Origin: Candidatus Calescibacterium sp.
Lineage (GTDB): Bacteria; Calescibacteriota; Calescibacteriia; Calescibacteriales; Calescibacteriaceae
Direction of reading: 5' to 3'
NCBI GenBank assembly: GCA_025060505.1
Contig: JANXBU010000003.1
Coordinates: 124,001-188,000 of the forward strand
Length of the DNA: 64,000 bases
Below the pieces are notes generated by a model. It worked only from the letters and a program-made list of their open reading frames with translations, was not told where the DNA came from and did no database searches. Position 1 is the stretch's first letter; each line of letters opens with the position of its first letter. The position numbers and the translations under genes were made by a program. Shown one piece after another: positions 893-60,488 of this stretch.

Positions 893-898
893 TAAAAT
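893..898 (+). promoter_or_regulatory. -10 box, leaderless promoter of the NurA-like gene
   Basis: TAAAAT lies 8 nt before the GTG start at 907. Transcription should start at or within a few bases of the GTG. There is no Shine-Dalgarno sequence, and no convincing -35 box was identified. Confidence 0.6.
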
Positions 899-906
899 AA
901 AACAGA

Positions 907-1857
907 GTGGAGATAAACCTGATTGAGAACAAGAGTAAGTTCAAAGAAGAGGAATACGAATACGATGAGAAAAATTTTGATTTACCTTTTTATACACTTC
1001 AGAAGATAGATGGCGTAGTACAAAAAAAATTCAATTACAATTTCATATTTGTAGATGGTGTTCTTGAAGAAATTCCGGCGAGATTATACTTCAAAGACGA
1101 AGGTGGAGAGTTTATTGCTCAGATTTTTGTCGCTAATGTTGGAGCTGGATTTGAGAGTGGAAGGATAGCAAAATATAAAAACCAGATCATTGTAACATTA
1201 CCACAAAATTTGTCACAAAACAGTGATGTCTTGAAATTAATACAAGAAGAGTTGAAGAAATTTGTTCACAATTTTAATAGTGAAACATTTGAGCCGTATA
1301 TTCTGCCGACTCCGGAAGATCCGAGAACAAAAAGAAGTTTGATTCTTGAATATTTGAGAAAAGAGGAGTTTGTATTAGCAAAGGAATTTGTTAAAAATTC
1401 AGTTGATTCATTGGTTATATTTGACGGAAATCTTTCACAAGACGTTTTTGAGATTTTGCAAGATGTTGATATAAAAAGTCCCATAGTGGGAATAGTTAAA
1501 AATTTTTCTTGGCCAAAGGATTTTATATCTCAGTTCAATTTGGATGGATCGAAGACAGGTATTATATATACAAATCTTCGTAGCAGACACAGATACTCTT
1601 TCTTTCTGCAACTTAAGTCAAACATGAAGGACTCTTTGGTTCGTGTAGATTTTCTATATCCGTCTTCTGATCTGAGTGAGATTTCAGGTTTTGCAGATTA
1701 CATCTCTGAAAGGATTTTGGGATGGGCTCAAAGCATAGGAGGCAGAGCGCCGAAGAATATAACACCAATAAAAGTTCTTGAAAATCGCCTTAGATCTCTC
1801 GTGGGAGATTTAAAGCTTTACATCAGAGTTCTGAGAAAATGCTTTGGTATCAAGTAG
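907..1857 (+). CDS. Hypothetical protein, possibly NurA-like nuclease fold
   Basis: A 316-residue soluble protein with no signal peptide or membrane segment. Three stretches recall the NurA 5'-3' nuclease domain: a VDG element near residue 50 (NurA has a catalytic VDGS), PIVGIVKNFSWP near residue 200, and RVDFLYP followed by a GGRAPKNITPIKVLE stretch near the C-terminus. NurA normally works with the HerA translocase in DNA end resection, and no herA lies nearby. The resemblance is by eye and weak, so the function should be treated as unknown. The GTG start is chosen because a TAAAAT box ends 8 nt before it. The gene converges on asnB with only 5 bp between the two stop codons. Confidence 0.5.
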   Translation: MEINLIENKSKFKEEEYEYDEKNFDLPFYTLQKIDGVVQKKFNYNFIFVDGVLEEIPARLYFKDEGGEFIAQIFVANVGAGFESGRIAKYKNQIIVTLPQNLSQNSDVLKLIQEELKKFVHNFNSETFEPYILPTPEDPRTKRSLILEYLRKEEFVLAKEFVKNSVDSLVIFDGNLSQDVFEILQDVDIKSPIVGIVKNFSWPKDFISQFNLDGSKTGIIYTNLRSRHRYSFFLQLKSNMKDSLVRVDFLYPSSDLSEISGFADYISERILGWAQSIGGRAPKNITPIKVLENRLRSLVGDLKLYIRVLRKCFGIK

Positions 1858-1862
1858 CTCAC

Positions 1863-3701
1863 TCATTCACATTTGTAATTTTCTTTCCACAAAAGAAATA
1901 CAAAGACGCTCCATATCTTTTTTCTGTTATCTTTTTTCATCAAGATATGTTCTTTTAATATTTCCTTTAACATTTCTGTGTTCAGAATGTTATTTGGACC
2001 AGAAAAGTAATGATATATTGTTTCTTTTAATTCTCTGTTTATCCATTTTGCCACGGGTATGCCGAAACCTTTTTTGGGTCTGTTTATTATCTCCCTCGGA
2101 AAATTTTTCACAGTCATAAGTTTTCTCAGTACATATTTTGTTTTGAATCCTTTTACTTTTAGTTCTTCCGGTAAGCTGTATCCGAAGTCTATTATTTCTG
2201 GGTCCAGAAACGGAGCTCTAACTTCAAGAGAATTTGCCATACTAGCTCTATCTAATTTCACAAGTACGTTTTCGGAAAGATAGGTTTTGAAATCTAGAAC
2301 AAAAAAATTATTTATATCTTCCTCAGGTATAATCTCCTTTATAAAATCGCTCAGGGAGATTTCTGATTCTTTGTATGGAACAATTAAACGTTTCTTTTCT
2401 TCTTCGGAAAATGATCCCATCCAGGCTATGTGTCTTTCCCATCCCTTCAATTCTTCTCCTTCAAGAAACTTTTTTATTTTGAAATCAAGACTGAAATTTG
2501 AATGAGATACCGGAATTTTAGATGCTAATTTGTGGATTTTACTCCTTATGGTTTTTGGTATCATCTGGTATATATTCATGATTTTGTGAGAGAAGTATGT
2601 AGGATAACCACCGAATATTTCGTCTCCGCCGTCCCCTCCGAGTACTACTTTTAAATGTTTTCTTGCAATTTTTGAAACAAGATATGTTGGGATAAAAGAT
2701 GCATCTCCTATTGGTTCATCTATGAATTTTGATACATCTGGGAAGATCTCAAGCATCTTTTTTTCATCAAAGTTTTCTTCTATGTGCTCTGTTCCTAAGA
2801 AATCAGAAACTTTCTTTGCGAACTTTGATTCATCAAATGAAGGGTCGGTAAAAGATATGTTGAATGTTTTTATTTTACCTTGATTTTTTGAAGCATAGTA
2901 TGTAACTAATGAAGAATCAATTCCGCCAGAAAGAAATACTCCAACTGGAACATCGCTTCTCAATCTTATCTTTACAGATTTATCAAGTAGTTTATCAAGT
3001 CTTTCAAGAACCTCGCTTTTAGGTATGAATATTTTTTTCATTGAGAAGTATTTTTTTATCTTGTACTGACCTTTGCTGTAAATCAAGGTATGGCCGGGTT
3101 TTAACTTATGGATACCATCTATTATTGAGAACGGTGATGGAACATAGTCAAACGTGAGATACAAGTTCAGAGCTTTCAGGTTTATTTTTCTTTTTACTTT
3201 TGGATTTTTTAGTATTGATTTGAGTTCAGAGGAGAAGATAAAAAAATCCGGAAAATCTCCAAAGTAAAGCGGTTTTTCCCCGGCTCTATCTCTTGTGAGA
3301 ACAAGCATATTGCGGTTTTGGTCATAAAGAGCTATTGCAAACATTCCGTTTAGATATTCAGGAAAATATTCTCCTTTTTCTTCATAAAGGTGAACTATGA
3401 CTTCCGTATCACTTCTAGTTCTGAATTTGTGTCCCTTTTTTTCTAAAAGTTCCCTTAGTTCAATATAGTTGTATATTTCTCCGTTGAATACTACCACAAT
3501 GCTTTCGTCTTCGTTTTTAATAGGTTGCTTCCCACCCTGAATGTCTATTATAGATAGTCTGCGTGAAGCTAATCCTATGTTGTTGTTTATATAAAATCCT
3601 TCATCATCTGGACCTCTGTGGTATAGAGCATCATTCATTACTTTGAGAATTTCTGGATCAACGCGAGTTTTTTTCTCAATTATGCCGCATATTCCGCACA
3701 T
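1863..3701 (-). CDS. asnB: Asparagine synthetase, glutamine-hydrolysing
   Basis: 612 residues, full length for AsnB. The N-terminal Ntn glutaminase domain begins MCGICGII, so Cys2 becomes the catalytic nucleophile after Met removal. The C-terminal synthetase domain has the ATP-pyrophosphatase P-loop FLSGGIDSS near residue 260 and a GGDGGDEIFGGY stretch. It would convert aspartate plus glutamine and ATP to asparagine and glutamate. It sits 8 bp downstream of a GT2 glycosyltransferase in the same direction. AsnB-like amidotransferases next to glycosyltransferases are often involved in surface polysaccharide modification, so an envelope role is a real alternative to plain asparagine synthesis. 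Confidence 0.92.
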   Translation of the reverse strand: MCGICGIIEKKTRVDPEILKVMNDALYHRGPDDEGFYINNNIGLASRRLSIIDIQGGKQPIKNEDESIVVVFNGEIYNYIELRELLEKKGHKFRTRSDTEVIVHLYEEKGEYFPEYLNGMFAIALYDQNRNMLVLTRDRAGEKPLYFGDFPDFFIFSSELKSILKNPKVKRKINLKALNLYLTFDYVPSPFSIIDGIHKLKPGHTLIYSKGQYKIKKYFSMKKIFIPKSEVLERLDKLLDKSVKIRLRSDVPVGVFLSGGIDSSLVTYYASKNQGKIKTFNISFTDPSFDESKFAKKVSDFLGTEHIEENFDEKKMLEIFPDVSKFIDEPIGDASFIPTYLVSKIARKHLKVVLGGDGGDEIFGGYPTYFSHKIMNIYQMIPKTIRSKIHKLASKIPVSHSNFSLDFKIKKFLEGEELKGWERHIAWMGSFSEEEKKRLIVPYKESEISLSDFIKEIIPEEDINNFFVLDFKTYLSENVLVKLDRASMANSLEVRAPFLDPEIIDFGYSLPEELKVKGFKTKYVLRKLMTVKNFPREIINRPKKGFGIPVAKWINRELKETIYHYFSGPNNILNTEMLKEILKEHILMKKDNRKKIWSVFVFLLWKENYKCE

Positions 3702-3709
3702 TATTAATT

Positions 3710-4810
3710 CTATTCTCCTCCGTATTTTTCTTTTATGTTGTATGGAAGTTTGTTCTGGGATTCAAAATAGTTTCTTACGAGAACTTCCATAATTAGCCCC
3801 ATTAAGATGAATTGAACTCCCATCGGAAGAAACGTAAAAGCTATGAGAATTTTTGGATTTCTGTGAACAAACACATCAAGAAAAACTTTGTCGTACAGAG
3901 TCCAGAAAGTAAATACTACACCGAGAAACAGCAGTATTAATCCTATTCCTCCGAAGAAATATATGGGTTTAAGAAAATAGCTCCCCATAAATTTTACAGT
4001 AAAGAGATCTAGAATCACTTTGAACGTTCTTTTTAATCCATATTTGCTCTTTCCGTGTTTTCTTTTGTGGTGCTTTACTGGGAGTTCTGATATTTTCGCT
4101 CCTTCAAAGTAGCAGAGAGCAGGAAGGAATCTATGCATCTCTCCATATAATCTTATTTTTTTGATGATCTCAGCTCTGTAAGCTTTTAAAGTGCAACCGT
4201 AATCTCTGAGCTTTACCCCAGTTATCAGCGATATAAGAAAGTTAGCTATTGTAGACGGTATAATTTTAGTGATCAGAGGATCGCGTCTATTTTTTCTCCA
4301 ACCACTTACCACATCGTATCCTTTTCTCATCTCTTCAAGCAGATTTTCTATATCGTCCGGATCATTTTGTAGATCTGCATCTAAGGTTATTATTATTTGA
4401 CCTTTCGCTTCTTGAAAACCAGCGTACATTGCAAGTGTCTGACCGTAATTTCTGGAAAATTTTATTCCTTTGACCTTAGGATCATTTTTAGCTATACTCT
4501 TTATTATTTCCCAAGATTTATCGGTGCTTCCATCATCAACAAGTATTATTTCATAGTCATATTTGCTTAGTGAGTTTTTAAGCTTTGAATAAAGTTCTTC
4601 AATGTTTTCTTCTTCGTTGTATATGGGTATGACTACTGAGATTTTCTCATCAGAAGAGTTTTTAACATCTTTATTTTCTATTTCCTCTGACTCCATTAGT
4701 TTTAAATTATTAGCAATTTGTTTCTCTTTTGTTTTGTTTCTTGTTTTTATTTTATTTTCTCTTTGTTTTGACGAAAATTTTGTATTGCTGTAATCTTTTT
4801 GGTTTTCCAT
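3710..4810 (-). CDS. GT2 glycosyltransferase, dolichol-phosphate-mannosyltransferase/GtrB type
   Basis: Family 2 transferase of about 366 residues. The GT-A domain shows VVIPIYNEEENIEELY, the DDGSTD nucleotide-binding element and DADLQNDPDD with the metal-binding aspartates. Two hydrophobic helices near the C-terminus match the GtrB/DPM membrane anchor. It probably moves a sugar from a nucleotide donor to polyprenyl phosphate at the inner membrane. The first 45 residues or so are a Lys/Asn/Glu-rich, likely disordered extension absent from most relatives. An in-frame TTG five codons upstream (4825) is the alternative start. ATG is preferred because a TATATT box lies at 4825-4830. It is co-directional with asnB and divergent from hemW. 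Confidence 0.85.
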   Translation of the reverse strand: MENQKDYSNTKFSSKQRENKIKTRNKTKEKQIANNLKLMESEEIENKDVKNSSDEKISVVIPIYNEEENIEELYSKLKNSLSKYDYEIILVDDGSTDKSWEIIKSIAKNDPKVKGIKFSRNYGQTLAMYAGFQEAKGQIIITLDADLQNDPDDIENLLEEMRKGYDVVSGWRKNRRDPLITKIIPSTIANFLISLITGVKLRDYGCTLKAYRAEIIKKIRLYGEMHRFLPALCYFEGAKISELPVKHHKRKHGKSKYGLKRTFKVILDLFTVKFMGSYFLKPIYFFGGIGLILLFLGVVFTFWTLYDKVFLDVFVHRNPKILIAFTFLPMGVQFILMGLIMEVLVRNYFESQNKLPYNIKEKYGGE

Positions 4811-4975
4811 GCGGTGATTTTCCAAATATAAACTCTAAAGTTACAAGATTTCTGTGATATAGATTATTTATAATAATTTTTATCTCTCGATTGTTTGTAA
4901 TTGTCTTATCTGAGTGTTGATTTTTAAACTTTTGAAAAAAAACTAATAAATGATTATCTGTTTGTTTGTCTGCTG

Positions 4976-6133
4976 ATGTTGAAGGGCTTATATGTTCATG
5001 TTCCTTTTTGTTTCAGAAAATGCTATTACTGTGATTTTGTATCAGGTATAAGTCCAAAATCTGATTACGTTCAGGAATATTTTGAAGCTCTGAACAATGA
5101 GCTGAAAATTTACTCATATTTATATGATTTTTCCACAATAAAAACTCTGTATTTTGGTGGTGGAACCCCAAGTCTTTTTCCAAAAGAGATTGCAAAGATC
5201 TCAGAATTTATTTCAAGATTCAGTAGTATAGAAGAGATTACAGTTGAAGCAAATCCATATTATAACTTCTCACCTTATGACTTTGAATTTGCAACAAGAA
5301 TATCATTTGGTGTTCAAACATTTTCGGAGAAGTATTTGAAAATTCTTGGAAGAGACCATAGCTCCAAAGATTCTGTAAGATCCATACAGAAAGCAACAGA
5401 TTTTTTCTCTGTTAATGCTGATCTTATTTTTGGAATGCCTAAACAGAGTCCTGCGGAGTATCTTGAAGACATAAAAAAGCTTCTCTCTCTTGGAGTAGAT
5501 CATATATCCTGTTATCTTCTTGAGATTCATGAAGGAACTCTACTGTGGAAAATGATGAGCAGTGGGCTATCTTTGGACTTACCAGAGAACATAGAAGATT
5601 TCTTTGATGTACAGGAGTATATTGAGGAAGCCGGCTTTGTAAGATACGAGGTCTCAAATTTTGCAAAACCGTCATCTGAATGCAAACATAATCTTTTGTA
5701 CTGGAACAGGGAAGATTTCTTGGGCGTGGGAGTTTCAGCTTGGTCAAAAATAGAAAACGTAAGATTTTGTAACACAAAAAATATCAGAGAATACATAAAT
5801 AATCTGCGAGAAGGAAAACTTCCTATTGAGGTGTTTGATAAAATAGAAGGATTCAGAGTTGTAGAGGAGATTATATTTTTGGGGCTCAGAAAGATTCAGG
5901 ATGGTATAAGCTTGGGAGAACTTTATAAAGAAGGTTTAGATGTATCGGGTTTTCTTGATACTTTGAAATCAATGTACTCAGATTTCCTCATTTTTGATGA
6001 GAACAGAATAAGAATAAACAAGCAGCATATACCAGTTATAGATGAAATAACAGCAAGGCTGATCGTTGTTGCCGAGAGGTTTTATAAGTTTAAAGATGGG
6101 TTAAACAAGATAGAGCTTTCAAGAAATTACTGA
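4976..6133 (+). CDS. hemW: HemW-like radical SAM protein (heme chaperone family)
   Basis: 385 residues. The radical-SAM cluster motif CFRKCYYC (CxxxCxxC) lies at residues 12-19, followed by the SAM-binding LYFGGGTPSLF. The HemN-type C-terminal region (HNLLYWNREDFLGVGVSAWS) is present, and the length fits HemW rather than the longer true HemN. HemW proteins bind heme and are thought to insert it into respiratory proteins; many were misannotated as oxygen-independent coproporphyrinogen oxidase. The gene is divergent from the glycosyltransferase and ends 30 bp before the convergent ilvC. Confidence 0.82.
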   Translation: MLKGLYVHVPFCFRKCYYCDFVSGISPKSDYVQEYFEALNNELKIYSYLYDFSTIKTLYFGGGTPSLFPKEIAKISEFISRFSSIEEITVEANPYYNFSPYDFEFATRISFGVQTFSEKYLKILGRDHSSKDSVRSIQKATDFFSVNADLIFGMPKQSPAEYLEDIKKLLSLGVDHISCYLLEIHEGTLLWKMMSSGLSLDLPENIEDFFDVQEYIEEAGFVRYEVSNFAKPSSECKHNLLYWNREDFLGVGVSAWSKIENVRFCNTKNIREYINNLREGKLPIEVFDKIEGFRVVEEIIFLGLRKIQDGISLGELYKEGLDVSGFLDTLKSMYSDFLIFDENRIRINKQHIPVIDEITARLIVVAERFYKFKDGLNKIELSRNY

Positions 6134-6163
6134 CTTTTGTAGATTCTTTTTCCTTATTCATGT

Positions 6164-7165
6164 TTAATCTTTTTTGAGCCAAGGCATCATTTTTCTTAGT
6201 TTTTCACCAACTTCTTCTGCTTTTGTGTTATCCCATTCTCTCAGTAGTGAGTAGAAAACGGGTCTTCCAGCTGAGTTTTCAAGTATCCACTCTTTTGCGA
6301 ATTTTCCAGATTTTATCTCTTCAAGTATCTCTTTCATTCTCTTTTTAGTGTTTTCGTCAATTACTCTTGGACCGCGTGTTAGATCTCCATATTTTGCGGT
6401 GTTTGAGATGAACTTTCTCATCATCTTGAAACCACCTTCGTATATGAGGTCAACTATGAGTTTCATCTCGTGTATGCACTCAAAGTATGCAAGCTCTGGA
6501 GGATAGCCAGCCTCGACGAGTGTTTCAAATCCAGCTCTCATAAGAGATGTCAGCCCTCCGCACAAAACAGATTGTTCTCCAAAAAGGTCTGTTTCTGTTT
6601 CATCTTTGAATGTTGTTTCTATAACTCCTGCTCTTGTTGCTCCAATACCTTTTGCGTAAGCTAAGGCTACATCTTTTGTATCTTTTGAGTAGTCTTGATA
6701 CAAAGCGAGTAGAGCAGGAACACCTCTTCCCTTTGTAAATTCATCTCTGACGAGTTTCCCTGGTCCTTTTGGTGCAACCATAAATACATTTACGTAATCT
6801 GGAGGAACAATCTGCTTGAAATGTATATTGAAGCCGTGAGCAAAAGCAAGATATTTACCTTTTGTAAGATGTTTACTTATCTTTTCTTTGTATATAGCTG
6901 GTTGTTCTTCGTCTGGAATAAGTATCATAATTATATCTGCCCACTGTGCTAAATCGTCTACTTCCATGGGTTCTATCCCTAACTTTTTGACAATGTCCCA
7001 AGATTGACTTGATTTTCTCAATCCAACAGAAACTTTTATTCCAGAATCTTTCAAGTTCAGAGCATGTGCATGACCCTGACTTCCAAAACCAACAATTCCT
7101 ACTTTTTTATCTTTTATCCAAGAAAGATCTGCATCTTTTTCATAGTATATTTTGACCTCATTCAT
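6164..7165 (-). CDS. ilvC: Ketol-acid reductoisomerase, class I
   Basis: Second step of valine, leucine and isoleucine synthesis: isomerises and reduces acetolactate or acetohydroxybutyrate. 333 residues, normal for class I. The Rossmann motif [17 protein letters not shown] lies near residue 25. The following GLRKSSQSW loop has the Arg/Ser residues expected for NADPH use. The C-terminal knotted domain holds the Mg-binding acidic residues ([16 protein letters not shown]). ATG at 7165 is chosen over an in-frame TTG at 7174 because an AGGAGG site fits the ATG. No other ilv or leu gene is adjacent. Confidence 0.96.
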
Positions 7166-7173
7166 TCTGTTCA

Positions 7174-7182
7174 ACCTCCTTT
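7174..7182 (-). promoter_or_regulatory. Shine-Dalgarno site deciding the ilvC start
   Basis: AAAGGAGGT on the minus strand ends 8-9 nt before ATG 7165. The TTG start at 7174 would overlap this site and is rejected. A TATAAAAT box lies about 20 bp further upstream, giving a short leadered mRNA, unlike most units in this window. Confidence 0.75.
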
Positions 7183-7395
7183 TGTCTGTATTTTATAACC
7201 ATATATGATCATTTGTATTTTTTCTGTTTTACTAAGTGCAAGGATCTTCACTTACATAGTTTTTGCTTAATTTGGATTGTCTGTATTTTTTATATTTTCG
7301 TATTCGGATATCAAATCAAGCATACTGGATGCTTCTTTAACAGATATAAACGGTGTGTGAAATATTAATTTTTTATTTTCTTGTAATTTATTAGA

Positions 7396-8088
7396 TCAGA
7401 CAAGCTTATCCTTTATTGCATATATTTGTTCATCGGCTTTTACAACAGACCTAAGTTCTGTTATTATTTTCTGTAAAACAGAGCTGTGTATTGCGACGAA
7501 AAGATCTTCAACCAAATAAGGGGTTCTTATTCTACTTGGGGTACATCCAAGTCCTATAACAACTGCTCTAAGATTGTATGCGTCAGCTAAAATTGCACAT
7601 GTTGGTCTTGTTCTGATCTTATAATTTACTCCCGCTCTCTCAGATGCTGTTGCAACCAACATAGCTTGTTCGGCATTGCAGAAGAATGTTAGAATATCTA
7701 TGTTACTTTCATTTTCTTTGAGCTGGTCAACAGGAATATATCTTATGATTTTGCTTTTTGGAAGTCTAGGAATTTTGCTTAACTCATCAATTGTAATCTG
7801 GTTTATTGATATCAGAAGTTTTATATCATAGTTATCTTTAACTTGATCAGAATCACTATCCATGCGTTATTTTATCTATGCTGCAGTTGTGATCCTGGTA
7901 CACTGTATGGAAGGCACAATCTATTTATAGTTTCCAGAAGGAACAGCTTGCTGGTGCATGACCTGCGAAAGCTTTTTCAACAGAGGGTTCTTCTTCAAGT
8001 CTCATAGCAACTGGAGTTTGCCTAAGCTTTAAAAGTTTTTTATCTCTGATATATCTTTAAGTTCAACTATGGTTGTTTTATTTTTAAG
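7396..8088 (-). pseudogene. Broken DUF169 family gene
   Basis: The C-terminal part (7396-7863) is still open for 155 codons. It matches the second half of DUF169 proteins: a DILTFFCNAEQAMLVA segment, RPTCAILADA and a conserved GCTPSRIRTPYL stretch. The missing first half lies directly upstream in other frames. From about 8080 it reads TIVELKDISEIKNF, then shifts frame to KLLKLRQTPVAMRLEEEP and SCSFWKL, hits TAA near 7939, continues with a YQDHNCSI element, and reaches TAG at about 7863 where the frame changes again. These are DUF169 landmarks in the correct order, so this is one gene broken by two frameshifts and a nonsense codon. The remaining ORF could still be translated from ATG 7863. DUF169 has no firmly assigned function. 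Confidence 0.72.
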
Positions 8089-8194
8089 AATATTTTATTA
8101 ATTAATAAAAATTTTTATATGAAATTTATACAAAAGAAAATTATTACTATTTGTTTGAAAATTCTGAATAATTTTGAAATCAATTTATTAATAA

Positions 8195-9385: not shown

Positions 9386-9438
9386 TTCTTTTCCTTGTAT
9401 GTTGTTATTTACTATTTCATGTCTTATCAGATGAAATT

Positions 9439-10107: not shown

Positions 10108-10146
10108 TTTTCTACTCTTTCGTCTACGGAATTTTTCATTTAATTT

Positions 10147-12375: not shown

Positions 12376-12381
12376 ACTATA
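12376..12381 (-). promoter_or_regulatory. -10 box, leaderless promoter of the outer-membrane protein gene
   Basis: TATAGT on the minus strand, 9 nt before ATG 12366. No ribosome-binding site lies in between. Confidence 0.6.
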
Positions 12382-13482: not shown

Positions 13483-13488
13483 TAAAAT
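13483..13488 (+). promoter_or_regulatory. -10 box deciding the glucan phosphorylase start
   Basis: TAAAAT lies 8 nt before ATG 13497. It falls inside the reading frame extended to TTG 13467, so it argues for the ATG as the true, leaderless start. Confidence 0.6.
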
Positions 13489-16398: not shown

Positions 16399-16404
16399 TA
16401 TAAT
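16399..16404 (+). promoter_or_regulatory. -10 box, near-leaderless promoter of the CNNM/CBS gene
   Basis: Consensus TATAAT 10 nt before GTG 16415, leaving a leader of about 3-4 nt. No Shine-Dalgarno sequence. Confidence 0.6.
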
Positions 16405-20963: not shown

Positions 20964-21028
20964 TTTTTTACCTCCTTTTATATAAATCTTATTGAATAAA
21001 GTTGTCGGATAAAAAACTCAAAAAAATT

Positions 21029-21139: not shown

Positions 21140-21346
21140 ATGAAATTTGTATATAATTTATTTGAATATCTTATTGGTCATTTAGATTTTTTTGCTTGTC
21201 CGTACTGTGCAGCTGATAATGCTGCCAGAAGTAATTCATCTATAACAGAGACTATTTTAACTGGTGCAGGTGTTCTTGTTCTTTTTCTATTTGCGGGAGG
21301 TTTTATTCTCTTCTATACTGTTGGTATGGTAAGAAAAAAATCTTGA
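21140..21346 (+). CDS. Small single-pass membrane protein with CPYC motif
   Basis: 68 residues. An N-terminal hydrophobic or amphipathic stretch leads to FFACPYCAADNAARSN near residue 20. A strong transmembrane helix (about 38-60, TGAGVLVLFLFAGGFILFY) and a basic end (RKKS) follow. The layout (short leader, ACPxC, one helix, positive C-terminus) recalls tiny proteins found beside cytochrome oxidase or cytochrome c biogenesis genes, but no such genes are adjacent. The CPYC could be a redox-active or metal/heme-linked site facing the periplasm. TAAATT ends 8 nt before the ATG, matching the leaderless pattern and supporting expression. Two large membrane coiled-coil genes follow 100 bp downstream. 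Confidence 0.6.
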   Translation: MKFVYNLFEYLIGHLDFFACPYCAADNAARSNSSITETILTGAGVLVLFLFAGGFILFYTVGMVRKKS

Positions 21347-21431: not shown

Positions 21432-21437
21432 TATAAT
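21432..21437 (+). promoter_or_regulatory. -10 box, leaderless promoter of the membrane coiled-coil pair
   Basis: Consensus TATAAT 9 nt before ATG 21447; no Shine-Dalgarno sequence in between. Confidence 0.62.
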
Positions 21438-24830: not shown

Positions 24831-24836
24831 TAAAAT
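24831..24836 (+). promoter_or_regulatory. -10 box, leaderless promoter of the GH31 gene
   Basis: TAAAAT 7 nt before ATG 24844, with no ribosome site. Confidence 0.6.
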
Positions 24837-28146: not shown

Positions 28147-28325
28147 ATCTGAACCTCCTTCTTGTTTTTATTTATATTATTTCTTGGATGAAATCATTAG
28201 GAATTTTTGACTTAAAATTTATAGTATTGTTTAAATTCTTGGAAACTTTTAAGTTCGGGATATAAGATTCAATAAGATTCAAATTTTAAGGTTCATGTTT
28301 CAATTTAAGATTCACTACAAAATAT

Positions 28326-28817: not shown

Positions 28818-28823
28818 TATATT
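28818..28823 (+). promoter_or_regulatory. -10 box, near-leaderless promoter of polA
   Basis: TATATT 10 nt before ATG 28834; the predicted leader is 2-4 nt. No Shine-Dalgarno sequence. Confidence 0.5.
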
Positions 28824-34494: not shown

Positions 34495-34504
34495 TTTGTT
34501 TGAA

Positions 34505-34510
34505 ATTATC
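34505..34510 (-). promoter_or_regulatory. -10 box of the porin operon
   Basis: GATAAT on the minus strand, 10 nt before ATG 34494. It lies 55 bp from the divergent cysC box, so the two promoters are nearly back to back. Confidence 0.5.
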
Positions 34511-34565: not shown

Positions 34566-34571
34566 TATGAT
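34566..34571 (+). promoter_or_regulatory. -10 box, leaderless promoter of cysC
   Basis: TATGAT 8 nt before ATG 34580; no ribosome site. Confidence 0.58.
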
Positions 34572-39513: not shown

Positions 39514-39519
39514 AATATA
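39514..39519 (-). promoter_or_regulatory. -10 box, leaderless promoter of thrC
   Basis: TATATT on the minus strand, 9 nt before GTG 39504; no ribosome site. Confidence 0.55.
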
Positions 39520-40683: not shown

Positions 40684-40689
40684 ATTTTA
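40684..40689 (-). promoter_or_regulatory. -10 box, leaderless promoter of the MDR dehydrogenase gene
   Basis: TAAAAT on the minus strand, 8 nt before ATG 40675; no ribosome site. Confidence 0.6.
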
Positions 40690-41742: not shown

Positions 41743-41748
41743 TAAAAT
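41743..41748 (+). promoter_or_regulatory. -10 box, leaderless promoter of the dciA-like gene
   Basis: TAAAAT (within TATAAAAT) 9 nt before ATG 41758. Confidence 0.58.
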
Positions 41749-42084: not shown

Positions 42085-42189
42085 CTAGATGCAAATAATT
42101 TGAAAAATATATAATCTGAACTATATAAATTATTTGGTAGTTATTATATTTTTTTAATACTGAGGTTATTACACAAATAAATTAGGATT

Positions 42190-46090: not shown

Positions 46091-46162
46091 TTGGGGTGGG
46101 AGGACTCGAACCTCCACGCCGGGATCCAAAGTCCCGTGTCCTGCCAATTAGACGACACCCCA
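46091..46162 (-). tRNA. tRNA-Gln (anticodon UUG)
   Basis: A complete cloverleaf can be drawn. Acceptor TGGGGTG/CACCCCA has the weak U1-A72 pair typical of glutamine tRNAs, with discriminator A at 46091. The anticodon stem is CGGGA/TCCCG around loop CTTTGGA (anticodon TTG), and the T arm is GAGG-TTCGAGT-CCTC. CCA is not encoded. It sits directly upstream of prs. Confidence 0.95.
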
Positions 46163-46169
46163 GACCTAC

Positions 46170-46175
46170 TGTATA
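46170..46175 (-). promoter_or_regulatory. -10 box of the tRNA-Gln/prs unit
   Basis: TATACA on the minus strand lies 7 nt before the first base of the tRNA. Transcription would start at or next to the mature tRNA 5' end, leaving almost no 5' leader. Confidence 0.45.
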
Positions 46176-46261
46176 TTAAAACGAAAAATAAAAAAATATG
46201 ATAAATTCAGAATGCTTAATATGGTATAAGAACTTTTATTTTTATTTCTTTCTTTATGCTT

Positions 46262-47273: not shown

Positions 47274-47279
47274 ATTTTA
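47274..47279 (-). promoter_or_regulatory. -10 box, leaderless promoter of the GlmU-like gene
   Basis: TAAAAT on the minus strand, 7 nt before ATG 47266, inside the 18-bp gap after pgsA. Confidence 0.5.
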
Positions 47280-48653: not shown

Positions 48654-48661
48654 AACTGGAA

Positions 48662-48667
48662 ATTATC
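48662..48667 (-). promoter_or_regulatory. -10 box, leaderless promoter of the enoyl-CoA hydratase gene
   Basis: GATAAT on the minus strand, 8 nt before ATG 48653. Confidence 0.55.
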
Positions 48668-49953: not shown

Positions 49954-49959
49954 ATTTTA
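49954..49959 (-). promoter_or_regulatory. -10 box, leaderless promoter of fabF
   Basis: TAAAAT on the minus strand, 8 nt before ATG 49945. Confidence 0.62.
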
Positions 49960-50047
49960 GTTTGCAAAATATCTTTTATGTAATAAAGAAAAATTTAAAA
50001 AATTTTTTGGTTTGTGTATTTTGATTTCAGCGTGTAAAGGATCTTGC

Positions 50048-50073
50048 TTTTTCTGATTACTTTTTCTGATTAT
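50048..50073. repeat. 13-bp tandem duplication after the HIT gene
   Basis: TTTTTCTGATTAC and TTTTTCTGATTAT are adjacent, directly beyond the HIT gene's stop codon. Confidence 0.65.
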
Positions 50074-50074
50074 T

Positions 50075-50620: not shown

Positions 50621-50683
50621 CAACAAAAAAATAATCAGATATACTAAAAATAAACTTTTTGAGAAATTATGGATTTATAGGTT

Positions 50684-51997: not shown

Positions 51998-52042
51998 GTA
52001 AGTCTTCATTCTAAAAATTTGCAACAATCTTTTGATGTAGTA

Positions 52043-52048
52043 TAAAAT
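52043..52048 (+). promoter_or_regulatory. -10 box deciding the dxr start
   Basis: TAAAAT (within TATAAAAT) lies 8 nt before TTG 52057, the modal spacing in this window. The next ATG is 20 nt away with no ribosome site, so the TTG is preferred. Confidence 0.55.
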
Positions 52049-52056
52049 ATATCGGT

Positions 52057-53217: not shown

Positions 53218-53250
53218 ATTTTTAGTTGGAGCCTTTTTATTTTATGAAAT

Positions 53251-53952: not shown

Positions 53953-53956
53953 TACA

Positions 53957-54913
53957 TTAAACTTTTATCAGATTTACTATTGGACCGCACTCTGCTTTTA
54001 TTTCTATGTCTTCAGATCTAATAAGTTCTCCATCGAAATTGATACCGCTTTTGGCTTTTATAAAAGCTTCTTGAATAACGTCGTTGAAAGAGTGGGGGGG
54101 TCTCTTCTCTCCTCTCGCATAGGTTCTGAAATTTTTCAGAGCTGTCCATACATCTCCGGAATAAACAAGAAAATAAAATCCATCTTTATATTTTTCCGGT
54201 TCAGCAAATGGTCTGAAAAACAAAGCAGGTTCTCTGAAAATGGAACCTATTATAACGTAATGTGATTTGTATGGATACGGAGTTCCCTCAGTTATTATCT
54301 CAGCTTCAATTTGTCTGATCAGTCTTTCGTCATCTTGACCAAACACAAATTTTGCAATAGATGAATATATTGTTTGAATTATCGAGCTTTTTGAAGAAAT
54401 TCTTGACTCAATTACTTTTTGCGAAATTAGATAAGGAGTTCCCAGAAAAAAAGAAAAACATATTCTTTCTCCAAGAGGTGGTTTTATAAAGTTTAATTTT
54501 ATTGTGTTGAACTTCCTTATGTTATCTCTGGGTATTACTGGCACATTTCCCAAAGATGATAGGGTTTCGTAAAATCTGATCATAATATCGTCAAGATCGC
54601 CTTTCAGAGGTATTTTTTCTGCTACTGCGTTCAATGTTCCAGCTTTTCCAACCATTACAGGTATTTCTAGCTCTTTTTTTCTCCCGGTTTTTTCCCAAAG
54701 CAGATTTATTCCAGAATTTAATGTTCCGTCTCCTCCTACAAAACACCAAACATCGACTTTATCTATATTTTCTGATATTATTCTTTCAAGATCTTGAATT
54801 CTTTCAGTTTCTTCAAATATGTATGCGTGGTCTTTGAGTATGGCGCGTATTCTTCTGGCTATACCTTTCCTGTTTCTTCGAGCATTTATGTTGCATACTA
54901 TACCGACTTTCAT
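53957..54913 (-). CDS. Diacylglycerol/sphingosine-kinase-like lipid kinase
   Basis: 318 residues. The DAGK catalytic domain starts VGIVCNINARRNRKGIA. The GGDGTLNSGINLL motif (GGDGT) near residue 82 and GKAGTLNAVAEKI replace the standard GTAND-type block. It probably phosphorylates a lipid acceptor. Compared with YegS/DgkB, the substrate is open. TATTAT lies 12 nt before the ATG. It heads a two-gene unit with the SDR. Confidence 0.85.
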   Translation of the reverse strand: MKVGIVCNINARRNRKGIARRIRAILKDHAYIFEETERIQDLERIISENIDKVDVWCFVGGDGTLNSGINLLWEKTGRKKELEIPVMVGKAGTLNAVAEKIPLKGDLDDIMIRFYETLSSLGNVPVIPRDNIRKFNTIKLNFIKPPLGERICFSFFLGTPYLISQKVIESRISSKSSIIQTIYSSIAKFVFGQDDERLIRQIEAEIITEGTPYPYKSHYVIIGSIFREPALFFRPFAEPEKYKDGFYFLVYSGDVWTALKNFRTYARGEKRPPHSFNDVIQEAFIKAKSGINFDGELIRSEDIEIKAECGPIVNLIKV

Positions 54914-55015
54914 ATGGAGACTCTAATAATATGATAAGTTATTTATAGGTTGTAGAGTTTTTCAATCTCTTATTAATTTTTGTTTTACTTTTTCCTATCG
55001 TGTTCTTTTTGTGGA

Positions 55016-55040
55016 TTGACGATGTATTTTTATTCGTCAA
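55016..55040. repeat. Inverted repeat in a 250-bp spacer
   Basis: TTGACGA and TCGTCAA form a perfect 7-bp inverted repeat around an 11-nt centre, about 100 bp upstream of the lipid kinase gene. Possible operator or mRNA hairpin. The rest of 54914-55166 shows nothing else. Confidence 0.4.
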
Positions 55041-55166
55041 GATTATATATAGATTCTCGTTTTAAATTTTTCTTAAGATCAATGAATTTTTAAAGATTTT
55101 TCCTATATCTGCGGCAAATTTTCAATAAATTGCAAGGTTTTCGCGACGTAATTTTTTAAAAGATTT

Positions 55167-55697
55167 CTAAGTTCTTTTTATCTTTGTGGAGACAATATCG
55201 AGCACCATATGTATTGTGTCTCCGGATGATATTCCAATTAAGAAGGCGATGAGGAATTTTAGATCAATATCAAGCAGAATATGTACTGTTGAGAAAAAAG
55301 ATTCTCTGAGAACCAGAAGAAAATTTTTGGTTTTCATTTCAACTCCAAGAAATACGAATATTGCCGTAAGGAAATAAATTATCAGGGCTGATATGAAGGC
55401 GATTGATAAAGTAAGATAAATGGATCTGATAATTGAGGAAACTACGGGAAAATGAGATAGAAATGATCTGTGTTTTACTAGCTTCATGTATGGTATCCAG
55501 ATGAACCTTAGAAACGACCATCTTCTATAAGCTTTTGATTTTGTGTCAAGGTCTGGGGAGAGAAAGAATACTCCAAAGATTATAGATATGAAAAATACAG
55601 CAGAAGCTCCTAAATCTCTTGTAATTTTGTAGTAAAGATATGTCAAAGGAATAGTGAATAGGGAAGCAAAAACTTCGTGGGTATGGTATCTTGGCAT
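55167..55697 (-). CDS. YdjM/DUF2227-like metal-binding membrane protein
   Basis: 176 residues with three or four transmembrane helices (about 28-48, 88-118, 150-168). It has a conserved polar set: HTHEVFASLF, FLSPDLDTKSKAYRRW, and a KHRSFLSHFPVVSS motif. H/D-rich patterns of this kind (H..H, SPDLD, H-R-x-x-x-H) define the putative metal-dependent membrane hydrolases of the YdjM/DUF457/DUF2227 group. Biochemical role unknown. It lies 2 bp downstream of the sigma factor gene. Confidence 0.72.
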   Translation of the reverse strand: MPRYHTHEVFASLFTIPLTYLYYKITRDLGASAVFFISIIFGVFFLSPDLDTKSKAYRRWSFLRFIWIPYMKLVKHRSFLSHFPVVSSIIRSIYLTLSIAFISALIIYFLTAIFVFLGVEMKTKNFLLVLRESFFSTVHILLDIDLKFLIAFLIGISSGDTIHMVLDIVSTKIKRT

Positions 55698-55699
55698 TT

Positions 55700-56443
55700 T
55701 TAGACCATAACTTTACCCTCAAGTTCCTTTCGGAGTTTCAGCAGAGCTTTTGAATGTATTTGGGAGATTCTTGATTCGCTTACGTTTAACTTCCTGGAAA
55801 TCTCCTTCATATGAAATCCATCAAGATAGTACAATTTTATTATTTCTCTTTCTCTTTCATCTAGTTTTTCCAATGCTTTTTCTATTATCTTTCGCAAGTT
55901 GGAGTTTTCTGCAAATTTGAAAGGATCCTTTACATTCTCATCATTTATAAGTTCATAGAGTAACTTTCCTTCCGACGAATTCTGATCAAATACAACTTCA
56001 TCAAGAGAGATAATTGACAGATTTGTTATTCTTTCAAGTTCAATATGATATTCTTCAAGTGTTATTCCGAGTTCTTTTGCAACTTCCTCATCGGTAGGTT
56101 CTCTACCGAGTTTGTTTTGTAGTTCTTTTATGGTGTTTGCAATTTGTTTGACCATAAGTCTTGATGATCTTGAAAGTACATCTGTTTTGCGCAGGTAGTC
56201 TATGATTGCTCCTCTTATTCTTATTTCTGCCCAGTTTTCAAACCTTCCTTTTGATTGATCAAATTTTTGTGCAGCTTCTATGAGTCCCAGGATACCTTCG
56301 GAAACGAGTTCTTCTCTTGCCATGCTATCTGGAAGTCTTGGAGCAACCTTGCGTACAACCATCTCGACCAAGTGTATGTTTTCCTCTACGATCTTTCTTA
56401 TATCTTTATTTACAATCTTTGGTTCTTTACTCTTCCTTCCCAT
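55700..56443 (-). CDS. fliA: FliA/WhiG-type sigma factor (sigma-28 family)
   Basis: 247 residues. Region 2 spans about 18-90 (VEMVVRKVAPRLPDSM, LVSEGILGLIEAAQKFD, FENWAEIRIRGAIIDYLR). Region 3 lies at about 110-150 and region 4 at about 195-240 (LDEREREIIKLYYLDGFHMK, ISRKLNVSESRISQIHSKAL). The compact order and DxLSRSSR element match FliA/WhiG rather than RpoD. It would direct RNA polymerase to flagellar and motility promoters. TATAAT lies 11 nt before the ATG, with AGGAG between, so initiation may use either mode. Confidence 0.9.
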   Translation of the reverse strand: MGRKSKEPKIVNKDIRKIVEENIHLVEMVVRKVAPRLPDSMAREELVSEGILGLIEAAQKFDQSKGRFENWAEIRIRGAIIDYLRKTDVLSRSSRLMVKQIANTIKELQNKLGREPTDEEVAKELGITLEEYHIELERITNLSIISLDEVVFDQNSSEGKLLYELINDENVKDPFKFAENSNLRKIIEKALEKLDEREREIIKLYYLDGFHMKEISRKLNVSESRISQIHSKALLKLRKELEGKVMV

Positions 56444-56455
56444 CTCCTGAATAAA

Positions 56456-57592
56456 TTATAAAATTTTTTTATATGTGTTTTTATATCGCTTAATGTTGAG
56501 ATTTTCTGTTATTTCTGTATTTCCTATTACTCCGAAAAATTCATATTTGCAGACTTTGCATCTGCTGCTGGTTTTATCAAGATTTTCGAATGATGAAGTG
56601 AAACCATATCTTGAAATCAGAATGTTTCCACAAGAAGGACAGTATGTGTTTTCTCCTTTATCTCCCCAGACGTTTCCGACATAAACAAATTTGAGTTTCG
56701 CACGAGCTATATCATAGGCTTTTTTTAGCACATCTAGTGGAGTTGGAGGTTTGTCTCTCATAAGAAAATGCGGAAAGAATCTTGATATATGAAGCGGTAT
56801 TCTATTGTCTATTTCGGAAATGAAATCTACAACTTGTTTAAAATCCTCTTCTTTATCATTTACTCCGGGTATAATGAGGTAGGTAAGCTCTATGAAAGGT
56901 TTCCCATTTTTTTTGAATTTTTCAAAAGATCTTCTTATTGAGGTCAAGACTGGTTTCAGATGTGCATCACTTACTTCTTTGTAGAGTTCTTCTTTTGCGA
57001 ATTTCAGATCTATGTTCATCGCATCCACAAAATCAGAAAGTTCCTCAAATGGTTGGACGCTTATGTATCCGTTTGTCACAAGAACAACTTTCATGTCTGG
57101 TGCCGATTTTTTGAGGAGATTTGCTGTGTCAATTATGAATTCAAACCATATTGTGGGCTCATTGTATGTGAATGCAATACCGATATTCCTGCTAGATTTA
57201 CTTTCAACTATTAAAGATACAAGCTCCTTGGGTGTAATAGATCTTACGGGAACAACTCCTTCTACGAGTTCCCAGTTCTGACAAAACTTGCAAGAGAAAT
57301 TGCAACCTACACCTCCTATTGATAAGATGTTGTATGTTGGATAAAAATGAAAGAGAGGTTTTTTCTCTATTGGATCAAGACATATTGAGGCGTACTTTCC
57401 ATAAGATCCTGCATAAAGTTTCCCTCCCTTGTTTATTCTAACAAGACATTTCCCAGCTTCTCCATCTGGTATATCACATCCTTGCGGACACAAAACACAC
57501 TTTACATAACCCCCTTCTTTTTTTAGGTAGTATTTTGCCTCATAATCCCCTCCTTTTATAGGGAAAGTATCTTTATAGAACCCGATGGACAT
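56456..57592 (-). CDS. amrS: AmmeMemoRadiSam-type radical SAM enzyme
   Basis: 378 residues. GVGCNFSCKFCQNW near residue 93 is the CxxxCxxC cluster site. N-terminal CVLCPQGCDIPDGEAGKC adds a second cysteine group, and ENTYCPSCGNILISRYGF near the C-terminus forms a zinc-ribbon-like site. This architecture is the AmmeMemoRadiSam (PflA-like) family, usually encoded with AMMECR1 and Memo homologs. Those partners are absent here. Its substrate is not established. It ends 12 bp before fliA. Confidence 0.9.
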   Translation of the reverse strand: MSIGFYKDTFPIKGGDYEAKYYLKKEGGYVKCVLCPQGCDIPDGEAGKCLVRINKGGKLYAGSYGKYASICLDPIEKKPLFHFYPTYNILSIGGVGCNFSCKFCQNWELVEGVVPVRSITPKELVSLIVESKSSRNIGIAFTYNEPTIWFEFIIDTANLLKKSAPDMKVVLVTNGYISVQPFEELSDFVDAMNIDLKFAKEELYKEVSDAHLKPVLTSIRRSFEKFKKNGKPFIELTYLIIPGVNDKEEDFKQVVDFISEIDNRIPLHISRFFPHFLMRDKPPTPLDVLKKAYDIARAKLKFVYVGNVWGDKGENTYCPSCGNILISRYGFTSSFENLDKTSSRCKVCKYEFFGVIGNTEITENLNIKRYKNTYKKIL

Positions 57593-57712
57593 AATTAAAA
57601 CTTACTCATAAAACGCAATCTGTAGGTAATTGCTGAATACATCAAAACGAATCAAGACATTTTTGTTTCTCGTTTGTAAGAGGGAAGCTGGTTTGGATAT
57701 TTTCTGTAATTT

Positions 57713-57946
57713 TCAGAAGAGTATTTTTTCGTCGTACTTTTTGCTCTCTTCTGATACCTCTTTGTATAGGACTTTGCCGTCTGCTATTTCTCTTAATGCT
57801 ACGACTATTTCTTTGTTTCCTTCAAGGTTATCAACCAAAGGTCTTGCATTTCTGACAAGCTGATAAGCCCTTATTATAGCCATGCGAACCAAAACAAATT
57901 TATTTGGTACCTTTTCAAGGCAATCTTCAATGGTTATTCTTGCCAT
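57713..57946 (-). CDS. rpoZ: RNA polymerase omega subunit
   Basis: 77 residues. CLEKVPNKFVLVRMAIIRAYQ with LVRNARPLVDNLEGNKEIV is the omega core, and VVALREIADGKV is the conserved C-terminal helix. Omega supports assembly of the beta' subunit. It lies 120 bp upstream of amrS in the same direction. In many genomes rpoZ follows gmk; here they are 20 kb apart. Confidence 0.9.
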   Translation of the reverse strand: MARITIEDCLEKVPNKFVLVRMAIIRAYQLVRNARPLVDNLEGNKEIVVALREIADGKVLYKEVSEESKKYDEKILF

Positions 57947-58113
57947 ATTTTCTTACCTTATTCCGAAATATTAAACCTTTATGTTTTTTCAAGAATTTTT
58001 GTTTTGCCACAATCATCTGGAAATTGCTTGCCTAGTGAGATTTGATCGTGGAGATAGTTTTTACTTCAAAAAAGATCATTTAAATTGAATATGCCTTGAA
58101 TTGAGCTGAGAAT

Positions 58114-59007
58114 TTAGCTACTGTGATTTACAGATTTAATTTTCTTCTCAAATTCTTTCAGAGTTCTTGCCTTTATTACTTCCTTCTTCAAGAGCCTAAG
58201 TTTATCTACATCGTCAATATGGATTATCTCCTTCTTGATTGATCTGGATATTTTACCAAACTTGATGCGTATAGCGAACAGCAATGCTTCCTTCAATCCT
58301 TCCTTTCTTCCTTTTTGTATACCTTCTTCAAGTCCCTTCTGTTTTCCTTCCTGATATAGCCATGTTTTAGTTATATCTATATCTATCACCGCTTTTTCTA
58401 CCTCCTTCCTCAAATCTTCTCTTATGTCTCTGAGCTCCGCAAATACTCCTAATCTATTTATATATTCTAACATATCGTGTTTGCTTATCTCTCTTTTCTC
58501 AAAACTTTGCCTGAGCCTTGATATTATGTTTCTTATAACTTCTGAAATATTATCTGTTCTACCAAGTATCCCAAGCAGATACACGTCCGGATTATCTGAT
58601 TCTAAAAATTTGTCAGCTTCAACTTTCTTCAAGTCTATTATCTCATACTCATACAAAATAGATGTCCCATCTGTTCTCATCTCTATCCTGTTGCTCATTT
58701 TAAGTTCATCCTTTCCTAAGTAGATTACTATCTGTTTTACTGGAAGATTGTGTTTTGAAATGACGACATAAAAATAACCAAGCATCCTTTTTGGCATATC
58801 TGGATCGTTTTTAGCCTGAAACTCTATGTGTAAAATCAACTCTGTTCCATCTTTAAGTTTCACAATCGCTAAAAAATCTGCCACAAGCTTACCGACTTGC
58901 ATCTCCTGCGATATCGGCCTTATCTCTACAAACTCGTATCCAAGAATCCTCAGAACCCCAAGCGCTACCTTCTCGAAAGTTGCTTTTATTGAAGAGTCAT
59001 ATTTCAT
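58114..59007 (-). CDS. Rpn/PD-(D/E)XK nuclease family putative transposase
   Basis: 297 residues. The nuclease core is VADFLAIVKLKDGTELILH followed by IEFQAKNDPDMPKRML (D, then E-x-Q/K of the PD-(D/E)XK fold). The typical Rpn/YhgA tail follows, with a Lys/Gly/Glu-rich QKGLEEGIQKGRKEGLKEAL stretch. Rpn proteins promote RecA-independent recombination or act as mobile nucleases or defence proteins. Many AT-rich thermophile genomes carry many copies. No terminal inverted repeats or target duplication were seen at its ends, so mobility is inferred only from the family. Confidence 0.82.
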   Translation of the reverse strand: MKYDSSIKATFEKVALGVLRILGYEFVEIRPISQEMQVGKLVADFLAIVKLKDGTELILHIEFQAKNDPDMPKRMLGYFYVVISKHNLPVKQIVIYLGKDELKMSNRIEMRTDGTSILYEYEIIDLKKVEADKFLESDNPDVYLLGILGRTDNISEVIRNIISRLRQSFEKREISKHDMLEYINRLGVFAELRDIREDLRKEVEKAVIDIDITKTWLYQEGKQKGLEEGIQKGRKEGLKEALLFAIRIKFGKISRSIKKEIIHIDDVDKLRLLKKEVIKARTLKEFEKKIKSVNHSS

Positions 59008-59347
59008 CCCTTTGAATTTGAGAATTTTCAGGGAAGTAATCGGAAATCTGAAAAGAGTTGGAGGTATTCATCTGAGCTTTGGTTCGGATAAAAAATTACT
59101 AAATCTACATATGTATTGTCCCTATTCTGTATGGCAAAATCCGAAACAAAATTTTCTTGCGTAGTATTTGGGTTCTTTGAAATTTTGATCTCTTATAAAA
59201 AATTATTCTATTCGGGATTGCTGAGAATTTTCTCATTTGGTTCTTGGATCATCTATCTTTCTTTTGGATGTTTTTTTGACATTGTAAGATTTTTCTGATA
59301 AAACTTGAATATCATCAAATTTTAAATATAATTTACACATTTCAATT
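59008..59347. other. Spacer between divergent Rpn and second pgsA genes
   Basis: 340 bp. A TATAAT box at 59327-59332 lies 15 nt before the GTG of the second pgsA gene. Open stretches on the plus strand (one overlapping the Rpn gene) look like AT-rich noise and match no family. No repeat or RNA was recognised. Confidence 0.5.
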
Positions 59348-59911
59348 GTGTCAGAGATACTGTATATTCCAAATATAATAACTGCTTTTCGGTTAGTTCT
59401 CACTCCTTTCATTTTGTATCATATGTATTTTGAGAATTGGCAGATAGCTTTTTTTGTTGGGTTTGTTGCGGTGGTTTCTGATTTTCTTGATGGAACAATA
59501 GCGAGAAGATTGAACATGGTTTCCGATTTTGGTAGGAAATTTGATCCAACGGTTGATAAGATTGTTTTGCTTTCTATATTTTTTGTGATATACCAGAAAA
59601 AACTTGCACCAGATTGGTTTTCTTTGATGGTTATAGTAAAGGATGTTTCTATTCCTGTTGTTCTTCTGATAGGCAAGATGAGGGGGGTGAAATTGAATTT
59701 TTCTCCGACAAAGATGGGTAAAGCTGCTGTTGCTTTGCAGTTTTTATATGTTATACTTCTTGTGTCGGAAAAGGCACTGGATATAAAAACATATTACGCT
59801 TATCTTATGTTTCCGATGGTCGTTTTCTGTTTTCTTTCATTGGCAAGCTATGTGGTGCTGATATATAAGCTTGTAAGTAGAGCAAAGGTGGAGGATAAAA
59901 TTGATATTTGA
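59348..59911 (+). CDS. CDP-alcohol phosphatidyltransferase (second PgsA paralog)
   Basis: 187 residues. IPNIITAFRLVLTPFILYH and the motif DFLDGTIARRLNMVSDFG, followed by RKFDPTVDK, give the full DG-AR-G-D-D signature. About five transmembrane helices. It either makes phosphatidylglycerophosphate or another phospholipid head group (for example cardiolipin or inositol lipid); the division of labour with the 47.3 kb gene cannot be read. GTG start; a TATAAT box 15 nt upstream gives a short leader without a Shine-Dalgarno site. Confidence 0.86.
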   Translation: MSEILYIPNIITAFRLVLTPFILYHMYFENWQIAFFVGFVAVVSDFLDGTIARRLNMVSDFGRKFDPTVDKIVLLSIFFVIYQKKLAPDWFSLMVIVKDVSIPVVLLIGKMRGVKLNFSPTKMGKAAVALQFLYVILLVSEKALDIKTYYAYLMFPMVVFCFLSLASYVVLIYKLVSRAKVEDKIDI

Positions 59912-59957
59912 ATTTTTTGTTTATTCTGTATTTGTCTGTTCATACTTTCTTTGCTTA

Positions 59958-60443
59958 TCAGTAGCTGATTTGTGGTGGAGTTATTTGTTTTCTTTCTTTT
60001 ATCTCTCCAATATACTGAGGAGGTTGAATATAGTATGAGCCATTTTCCTTCACAAAGACTATGTTGTTATATATTCTGATGTCCTCAACTGGATATTTTC
60101 TTCTTAACTTTATTTCGACTTCAAATTCGCAAGCATTTTCAGCGATTTTTGAAGAGAGAATTCTAAATGATTCAAATGTACCATAAAAAGCTTCTTGTTC
60201 TCTGATTTTGTATATTACCGAGGAAATGAATATTTCTGCTTGTTCTGTATCTTTGAAGAATTTCGTTATCAGATCTTTCGTTCTTACATCTCTTATATCA
60301 TATCTGCTAAGTGTATTCATCAGTTCATTTAAAGCTGAAAGTTCTTCTGAACACTCCTGTGGAACATAAGCAATCTTATGGGAAGAACAGTATATTGGTA
60401 TAAGAATTAAGATTGAGAATATTGTTATCTTTATAAATCTCAT
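59958..60443 (-). CDS. Predicted lipoprotein, unknown function
   Basis: 161 residues. A hydrophobic signal of 18 residues ends with PIYCSS, a plausible lipobox cysteine. The rest is one small alpha/beta domain (IRDVRTKDLITKFF, AENACEFEVEIKLRRKYPV, ENGSYYIQPPQYIGEI), similar in feel to NTF2- or DUF4878-like lipoproteins, but not recognised. GAAAG before the ATG may be a weak ribosome site. It is convergent with pgsA2 and divergent from hisB. Confidence 0.65.
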   Translation of the reverse strand: MRFIKITIFSILILIPIYCSSHKIAYVPQECSEELSALNELMNTLSRYDIRDVRTKDLITKFFKDTEQAEIFISSVIYKIREQEAFYGTFESFRILSSKIAENACEFEVEIKLRRKYPVEDIRIYNNIVFVKENGSYYIQPPQYIGEIKERKQITPPQISY

Positions 60444-60482
60444 CTTTCTTCCGAAATTAGTTTTATTTGCTTGAGGTATTTA

Positions 60483-60488
60483 TAAAAT
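60483..60488 (+). promoter_or_regulatory. -10 box deciding the hisB start
   Basis: TAAAAT (within TATAAAAT) lies 8 nt before ATG 60497 and inside the frame extended to TTG 60467, favouring the ATG as a leaderless start. Confidence 0.58.

Follow-up and report, generated by a model that had tools for sequence, protein, structure and literature searches.

TANNNT hexamers close before start codons point to leaderless transcription of many first genes in a Candidatus Calescibacterium genome

Introduction

The stretch analysed here (the window) comprises 64,000 nucleotides of Candidatus Calescibacterium sp. (contig JANXBU010000003.1, positions 124,001 to 188,000) and raises the question of what a hexamer of the form TANNNT is doing a few nucleotides before the start codon of many of its genes. 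An earlier note, made from the letters of the window alone, had taken such hexamers before about 20 units on both strands to be the -10 boxes of leaderless transcripts and this arrangement to be the default. At every site that it listed, a TANNNT-type box does lie 6–10 nt before the start given. Counts over much of the genome now offer good support for reading these hexamers as -10 boxes of leaderless transcripts, with a predicted leader of about 0–3 nt.

The window belongs to a 2.28-Mb draft genome, 86% complete, of the phylum Calescibacterota (EM19/Calescamantes). The nearest named relative is Candidatus Calescibacterium nevadense, to which the FabF protein of the window is 68% identical, and NCBI taxonomy places the genus within Candidatus Calescibacteriota; by both measures the organism falls outside Deinococcus-Thermus and Actinobacteria. 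The lineage, formerly EM19 or Calescamantes, occurs in springs at close to 80 °C (PMC4791363).

Results

A TANNNT excess before first genes

Genome-wide counts were made on 963 kb of the window's genome (G000), in which 793 genes were called with a purpose-written caller that relies on codon statistics and start-codon type and never uses the upstream DNA, thereby avoiding circularity. A gene was taken as first in its unit when its upstream neighbour is divergent or lies at least 25 nt away on the same strand, and as internal when that distance is below 25 nt. TANNNT at a gap of 6–10 nt precedes 38% of the 613 first genes (16% at control offsets) and 18% of the 142 internal genes (10% at control offsets; first versus internal, Fisher p = 3.6e-6), so that the equal frequency before internal genes which the earlier note had named as fatal to its reading is not what we find. 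The comparison with shuffled sequence that it had proposed gives the same picture: dinucleotide-preserving shuffles over the 30 bases upstream yield 117.5 ± 9.1 first genes with the hexamer, against 234 of 613 observed (z = 12.9), and 16.4 ± 3.6 internal genes, against 26 of 142. The commonest gap over the genome sample is 7–8 nt, where the earlier note had given a mode of 8 nt.

Among first genes without a Shine-Dalgarno (SD) sequence, TANNNT is the best of the 64 patterns of the form XYNNNZ, with z = 17 and a runner-up at 4.8; only one pattern peaks strongly, so base composition is not the cause. An unsupervised mixture model recovered the motif T72-A78-(A/T)-A65-N-T85 at gaps of mostly 6–9 nt, with a log-likelihood gain of 228 compared with 27–30 at control offsets. 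This model used an order-2 background and SD-filtered genes, an early version with a single-base background having drifted to A-runs and SD sequences.

Counted strictly, the TANNNT excess amounts to 26% of first genes and 30% of divergent ones, and the mixture model assigns 72% of the first genes without an SD (499 in number) to the TANNNT class. This corresponds to about 58% of the whole set of first genes, and we take it as the upper figure. The leaderless share of first genes would thus lie roughly between a quarter (strict) and just over half (model). With 15–20% of first genes clearly SD-led, the word "default" is too strong.

Relatives and control replicons

Five genomes of the phylum, all from one family, were compared, two of which (G001 and G003) represent other genera. 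With the same pipeline, the TANNNT excess of first genes is 18% in G001 and 28% in G003. The positive controls, a Deinococcus deserti plasmid and Thermus thermophilus pTT27, both of a phylum with established promoters of this kind, give 14% and 23%, respectively; no excess was found in E. coli or in three Aquificota plasmids, and no clear excess on an AT-rich Priestia plasmid, a small sample of 40 first genes.

A promoter rather than a translation signal

The element could in principle act on the ribosome. An A/U-rich translation enhancer binding S1 or the 30S subunit, as proposed in Bacteroidota, would place the mRNA start further upstream and make the likeness to a -10 box a by-product of AT-richness; the upstream regions of the genome are about 75% A+T, most genes lack an SD sequence, and S1-domain proteins are present. 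Transfer RNA genes speak to this directly, since they are untranslated and yet preceded by the same hexamer: in the stretches of G000 analysed, TANNNT occurs within 5–14 nt of 16 of the 20 tRNA genes and of 6–9 of 20 in control windows, which points to a promoter rather than a translation signal. The box commonly stands 9–10 nt before the mature 5' end, and tRNA precursors may accordingly have very short 5' leaders.

The surrounding sequence is also in register with the hexamer rather than with the start codon. When genes are aligned on the hexamer, an AT-rich block appears 24–28 nt upstream of it, at about -40 to -36 (17.6% versus 29.7% GC, p = 5e-11). Across three genomes, the upstream profiles of short-gap and long-gap genes correlate with r = 0.66 when aligned on the hexamer and r = 0.01 when aligned on the ATG, a difference that none of 300 permutations reached. 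SD-led genes provide a further line of sequence evidence, with TANNNT enriched 20–24 nt before their starts (about 0.3 versus about 0.17), where the -10 box of a short-leadered gene is expected. Taken with the far lower frequency of TANNNT at internal genes and its sole peak among composition-matched patterns, these observations make a translation enhancer a highly unlikely account of the hexamers.

The AT-rich block may be an UP-like element or an altered -35 element. TTGACA, TTGAAA and TTTGAA at canonical spacing upstream of the hexamer occur little more often than upstream of control hexamers, with no clear TTGACA. A TTTGAAA element noticed by eye before many genes proved to be weakly enriched near -45 and was dropped, as no strong motif emerged. 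At position -1 there is an enrichment of T, reaching 77% for gap 6; this fits a transcription start at the A of the ATG but is shared, less strongly, by other genes.

The hexamers might instead be real promoters of secondary importance, the main transcripts arising from -10 boxes further upstream and carrying ordinary leaders. More -10-like hexamers do exist in the AT-rich upstream DNA, at background frequency; non-SD genes show no other offset above background, and the leadered forms of TANNNT genes would be without an SD sequence, so that we regard this arrangement as very improbable.

An SD-led class and an ordinary-looking translation apparatus

Beside the TANNNT class the genome has SD-led genes, and its anti-SD is intact. 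By the mixture model (GGAGG motif), SD sequences precede about 16–23% of first genes and 34% of internal genes; by exact words, the figures are 12–15% for divergent and far genes and 26% for internal genes. Only about one third of internal genes thus have a recognisable SD sequence, and coupling or another signal is possible for the others. The SD-led state was kept in 13 of 15 orthologs between G000 and G003. In the window, a textbook SD (AAGGAGGT or GGAGG) stands before the genes starting at 151, 7165, 10911, 20963, 28146, 36579 and 62338, and GGAGG also before 3701, which amends the earlier picture of genes without SD sites.

Two simple causes of SD-independent initiation were considered and ruled out. 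The 16S rRNA ends in GGATCACCTCCTTTC, so the anti-SD is neither lost nor altered, and S1-domain proteins and IF3 are both present. From these sequences the translation apparatus looks ordinary.

Sites in the window

TANNNT precedes 12 of the 20 same-strand first genes in the window that lie at least 80 nt from the next gene upstream (4.2 expected; reached by 0 of 500 shuffles) and 10 of the 25 divergent first genes (4.8 expected; reached by 8 of 500). That TANNNT is simply common in DNA of 34–36% GC, with favourable cases picked out in the earlier note, holds for individual sites, as chance alone would supply about 10 of the window's 24 motif-bearing first genes, but as a full explanation it is refuted by the shuffles over 613 genes (z = 13); the peak in two further genera and the little or no excess in the small Priestia sample also speak against it.

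The sites are collected in Table 1. Our gene calls place the start elsewhere at two of those listed in the earlier note, at ATG 36765 rather than GTG 36747 and at ATG 52069 rather than TTG 52057, and the open reading frame 21140–21346, whose listed start is 21140, has a weak coding score.

Table 1. Candidate -10 hexamers, SD sequences and sigma-70 genes; positions refer to the window unless a contig or locus is given, and distances run to the start codon or mature 5' end.
Feature	Position	Strand	Context
TAAAAT	893–898	+	8 nt before GTG 907
TATAGT	12376–12381	-	9 nt before ATG 12366
TAAAAT	13483–13488	+	8 nt before ATG 13497 (alpha-glucan phosphorylase)
TATAAT	16399–16404	+	10 nt before GTG 16415 (CorC/GldE-like)
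TATAAT	21432–21437	+	9 nt before ATG 21447
TAAAAT	24831–24836	+	7 nt before ATG 24844 (alpha-glucosidase-like)
TATATT	28818–28823	+	10 nt before ATG 28834 (DNA polymerase I)
TAATTT	34503–34508	-	8 nt before ATG 34494
TATGAT	34566–34571	+	8 nt before ATG 34580 (adenylyl-sulfate kinase)
TATATT	39514–39519	-	9 nt before GTG 39504 (threonine synthase)
TAAAAT	40684–40689	-	8 nt before ATG 40675 (alcohol dehydrogenase family); G001 ortholog likewise TANNNT
TAAAAT	41743–41748	+	9 nt before ATG 41758
TAAATT	42178–42183	+	6 nt before ATG 42190
TAATAT	46173–46178	-	10 nt before tRNA-Gln (46091–46162), untranslated gene
TAAAAT	47274–47279	-	7 nt before ATG 47266 (GlmU C-terminal-like); end of same-strand upstream gene 18 nt off
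TAATTT	48660–48665	-	6 nt before ATG 48653 (enoyl-CoA hydratase family)
TAAAAT	49954–49959	-	8 nt before ATG 49945 (FabF); G001 ortholog likewise TANNNT
TAAAAT	52042–52047	+	9 nt before TTG 52057 (Dxr); longer leader if translation begins at ATG 52069
TAAAAT	60483–60488	+	8 nt before ATG 60497 (HisB)
SD GGAGGT	136–141	+	before ATG 151, SD-led class
SD GGAGGT	20970–20975	-	before ATG 20963, SD-led class
SD GGAGGT	28153–28158	-	before ATG 28146, SD-led class
FliA/WhiG-type sigma gene	55700–56443	-	third sigma-70 gene of G000
dnaG-linked RpoD gene	G000:C29; L175:895–2292		outside the window; orthologs in the other four genomes (L172, L173, L174, L176)
RpoH-like sigma gene	G000:C60:78969–80183; L141		orthologs in all five genomes

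A diverged primary sigma factor

Sigma-70 genes were sought in the five genomes to find the factor that reads the -10 boxes; four genomes have three and the other has two. One of them, an RpoD gene, follows a primase-like open reading frame, as in the dnaG-rpoD arrangement of E. coli, a neighbourhood that fits a primary sigma. Its product has the best RpoD_Cterm score of the three sigma-70 proteins of G000 (213 bits), and scores over the RpoD proteins of the phylum run from 208 to 229 bits, below the curated cut-off of 354. In all five genomes, alignment to E. coli RpoD (whose numbering is used) shows R397 replaced by Q, K or P, W433 by P and V454 by G; W434, Q437, H455 and E458 are retained, as are E585 and R588 of the -35 helix, and region 1.2 is diverged, with no match to PF00140. 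The three corresponding residues, R220, W256 and V277 in Taq numbering, are given as 100% conserved across an alignment of 1002 primary sigmas (Table 3 of PMC4593229). The dnaG-linked RpoD lacks this set and departs from a residue that has been called universally conserved. According to work cited in the same paper, replacing that tryptophan by alanine leads to severe defects in melting and to cold phenotypes.

The sole PF00140 (region 1.2) match belongs to a sigma factor with an N-terminal extension; it was considered as the primary sigma and rejected, being RpoH-like. It is tempting, though rather doubtful, to suppose that an RpoD without the W433 melting wedge (W433P, with R397, V454 and region 1.2 changed) has a distinct way of opening promoters in the heat, linked to leaderless translation, and lies behind the AT-rich promoters with their -10 box next to the start codon. 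Thermus, which is rich in leaderless genes, has an ordinary sigma, the reference structure of PMC4593229 being that of Thermus aquaticus.

Discussion

The best explanation, and in our judgement very probably the right one, is that a large share of first genes give rise to leaderless transcripts from a -10 box placed immediately before the coding sequence. It draws on the position of the hexamer, the specificity of the pattern, the contrast between first and internal genes, the tRNA genes, the register of the AT-rich block, the agreement of three genera and the behaviour of the controls. In the proposed scheme, a housekeeping-type -10 box (TATAAT or TAAAAT), accompanied by a weak AT-rich block (about -40 to -36) and lacking a clear TTGACA, would place the transcription start at the start codon or no more than about 3 nt from it. 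The resulting 5' AUG or GUG would be recognised without an SD sequence, with 70S ribosomes or IF2 presumably responsible. The remainder would include the SD-led class, with its -10 box about 20–24 nt upstream, and operon-internal genes would use SD sequences more often.

Several points weigh against this explanation. The transcription starts are predictions from the DNA sequence. The gene caller placed 29 of 42 starts exactly (about 69%) on an annotated 50-kb stretch of E. coli, although wrong starts should dilute the TANNNT signal rather than create it. The absence of TANNNT at gap 6–10 from clear-SD first genes (0 of 83) is partly mechanical, as the SD fills that place. Gene-by-gene conservation of the exact TANNNT state was not significant in the 43 and 44 ortholog pairs compared between genera. 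Finally, there is a sizeable group of first genes with neither an SD nor a TANNNT, some of which probably have degenerate -10 boxes or wrongly called starts.

If the leaderless reading is true, a deep-branching hot-spring phylum joins the groups that rely on leaderless mRNAs as a main way of expressing ordinary genes, which bears on the question of whether this kind of initiation is ancestral or has arisen repeatedly. In AT-rich DNA the TANNNT signal is easily dismissed as composition, and gene callers that expect an SD sequence will misplace starts in these genomes.

Leaderless organisation is well known elsewhere and apparently unreported for the Calescibacterota; among the papers searched here, none names both Calescamantes and leaderless genes. 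The earlier note had stressed its occurrence in a genome unrelated to Actinobacteria and Deinococcus-Thermus; the unrelatedness holds, but bacteria-wide surveys already report the signal in many phyla. In the excerpts used here, Zheng et al. (2011; PMC3160421) read a TA-like signal about 10 bp upstream as leaderless in 207 of 953 bacterial genomes from many phyla, and describe the same fuller motif (TAtAAT) in AT-rich genomes; the phyla with leaderless genes named in those excerpts do not include Calescibacterota, and some such genes are given for Aquificae, whereas our three Aquificota plasmids were negative. The leaderless transcriptome of Mycobacterium tuberculosis (PMC3898074) likewise has a TANNNT -10 box, with transcription starting at the start codon in many first genes and SD sequences serving others; Actinobacteria are high-GC members of an unrelated phylum, and start sites are mapped there and predicted from the DNA here.

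The closest parallel is with Deinococcus-Thermus, in which TANNNT lies 6–7 nt before the open reading frame of about one third of genes, beside an SD class, and in which reporter assays together with transcriptomes showed that it acts as a promoter (Zhong et al., 2025; PMC12340547). That survey was made on complete reference genomes and so probably left draft-only phyla uncovered. Both systems combine an ORF-adjacent TANNNT with a coexisting SD class; the one described here belongs to another phylum, at 34–37% GC rather than 60–70%, and has a fuller TATAAT or TAAAAT box, a modal gap of 7–8 nt and a diverged primary sigma.

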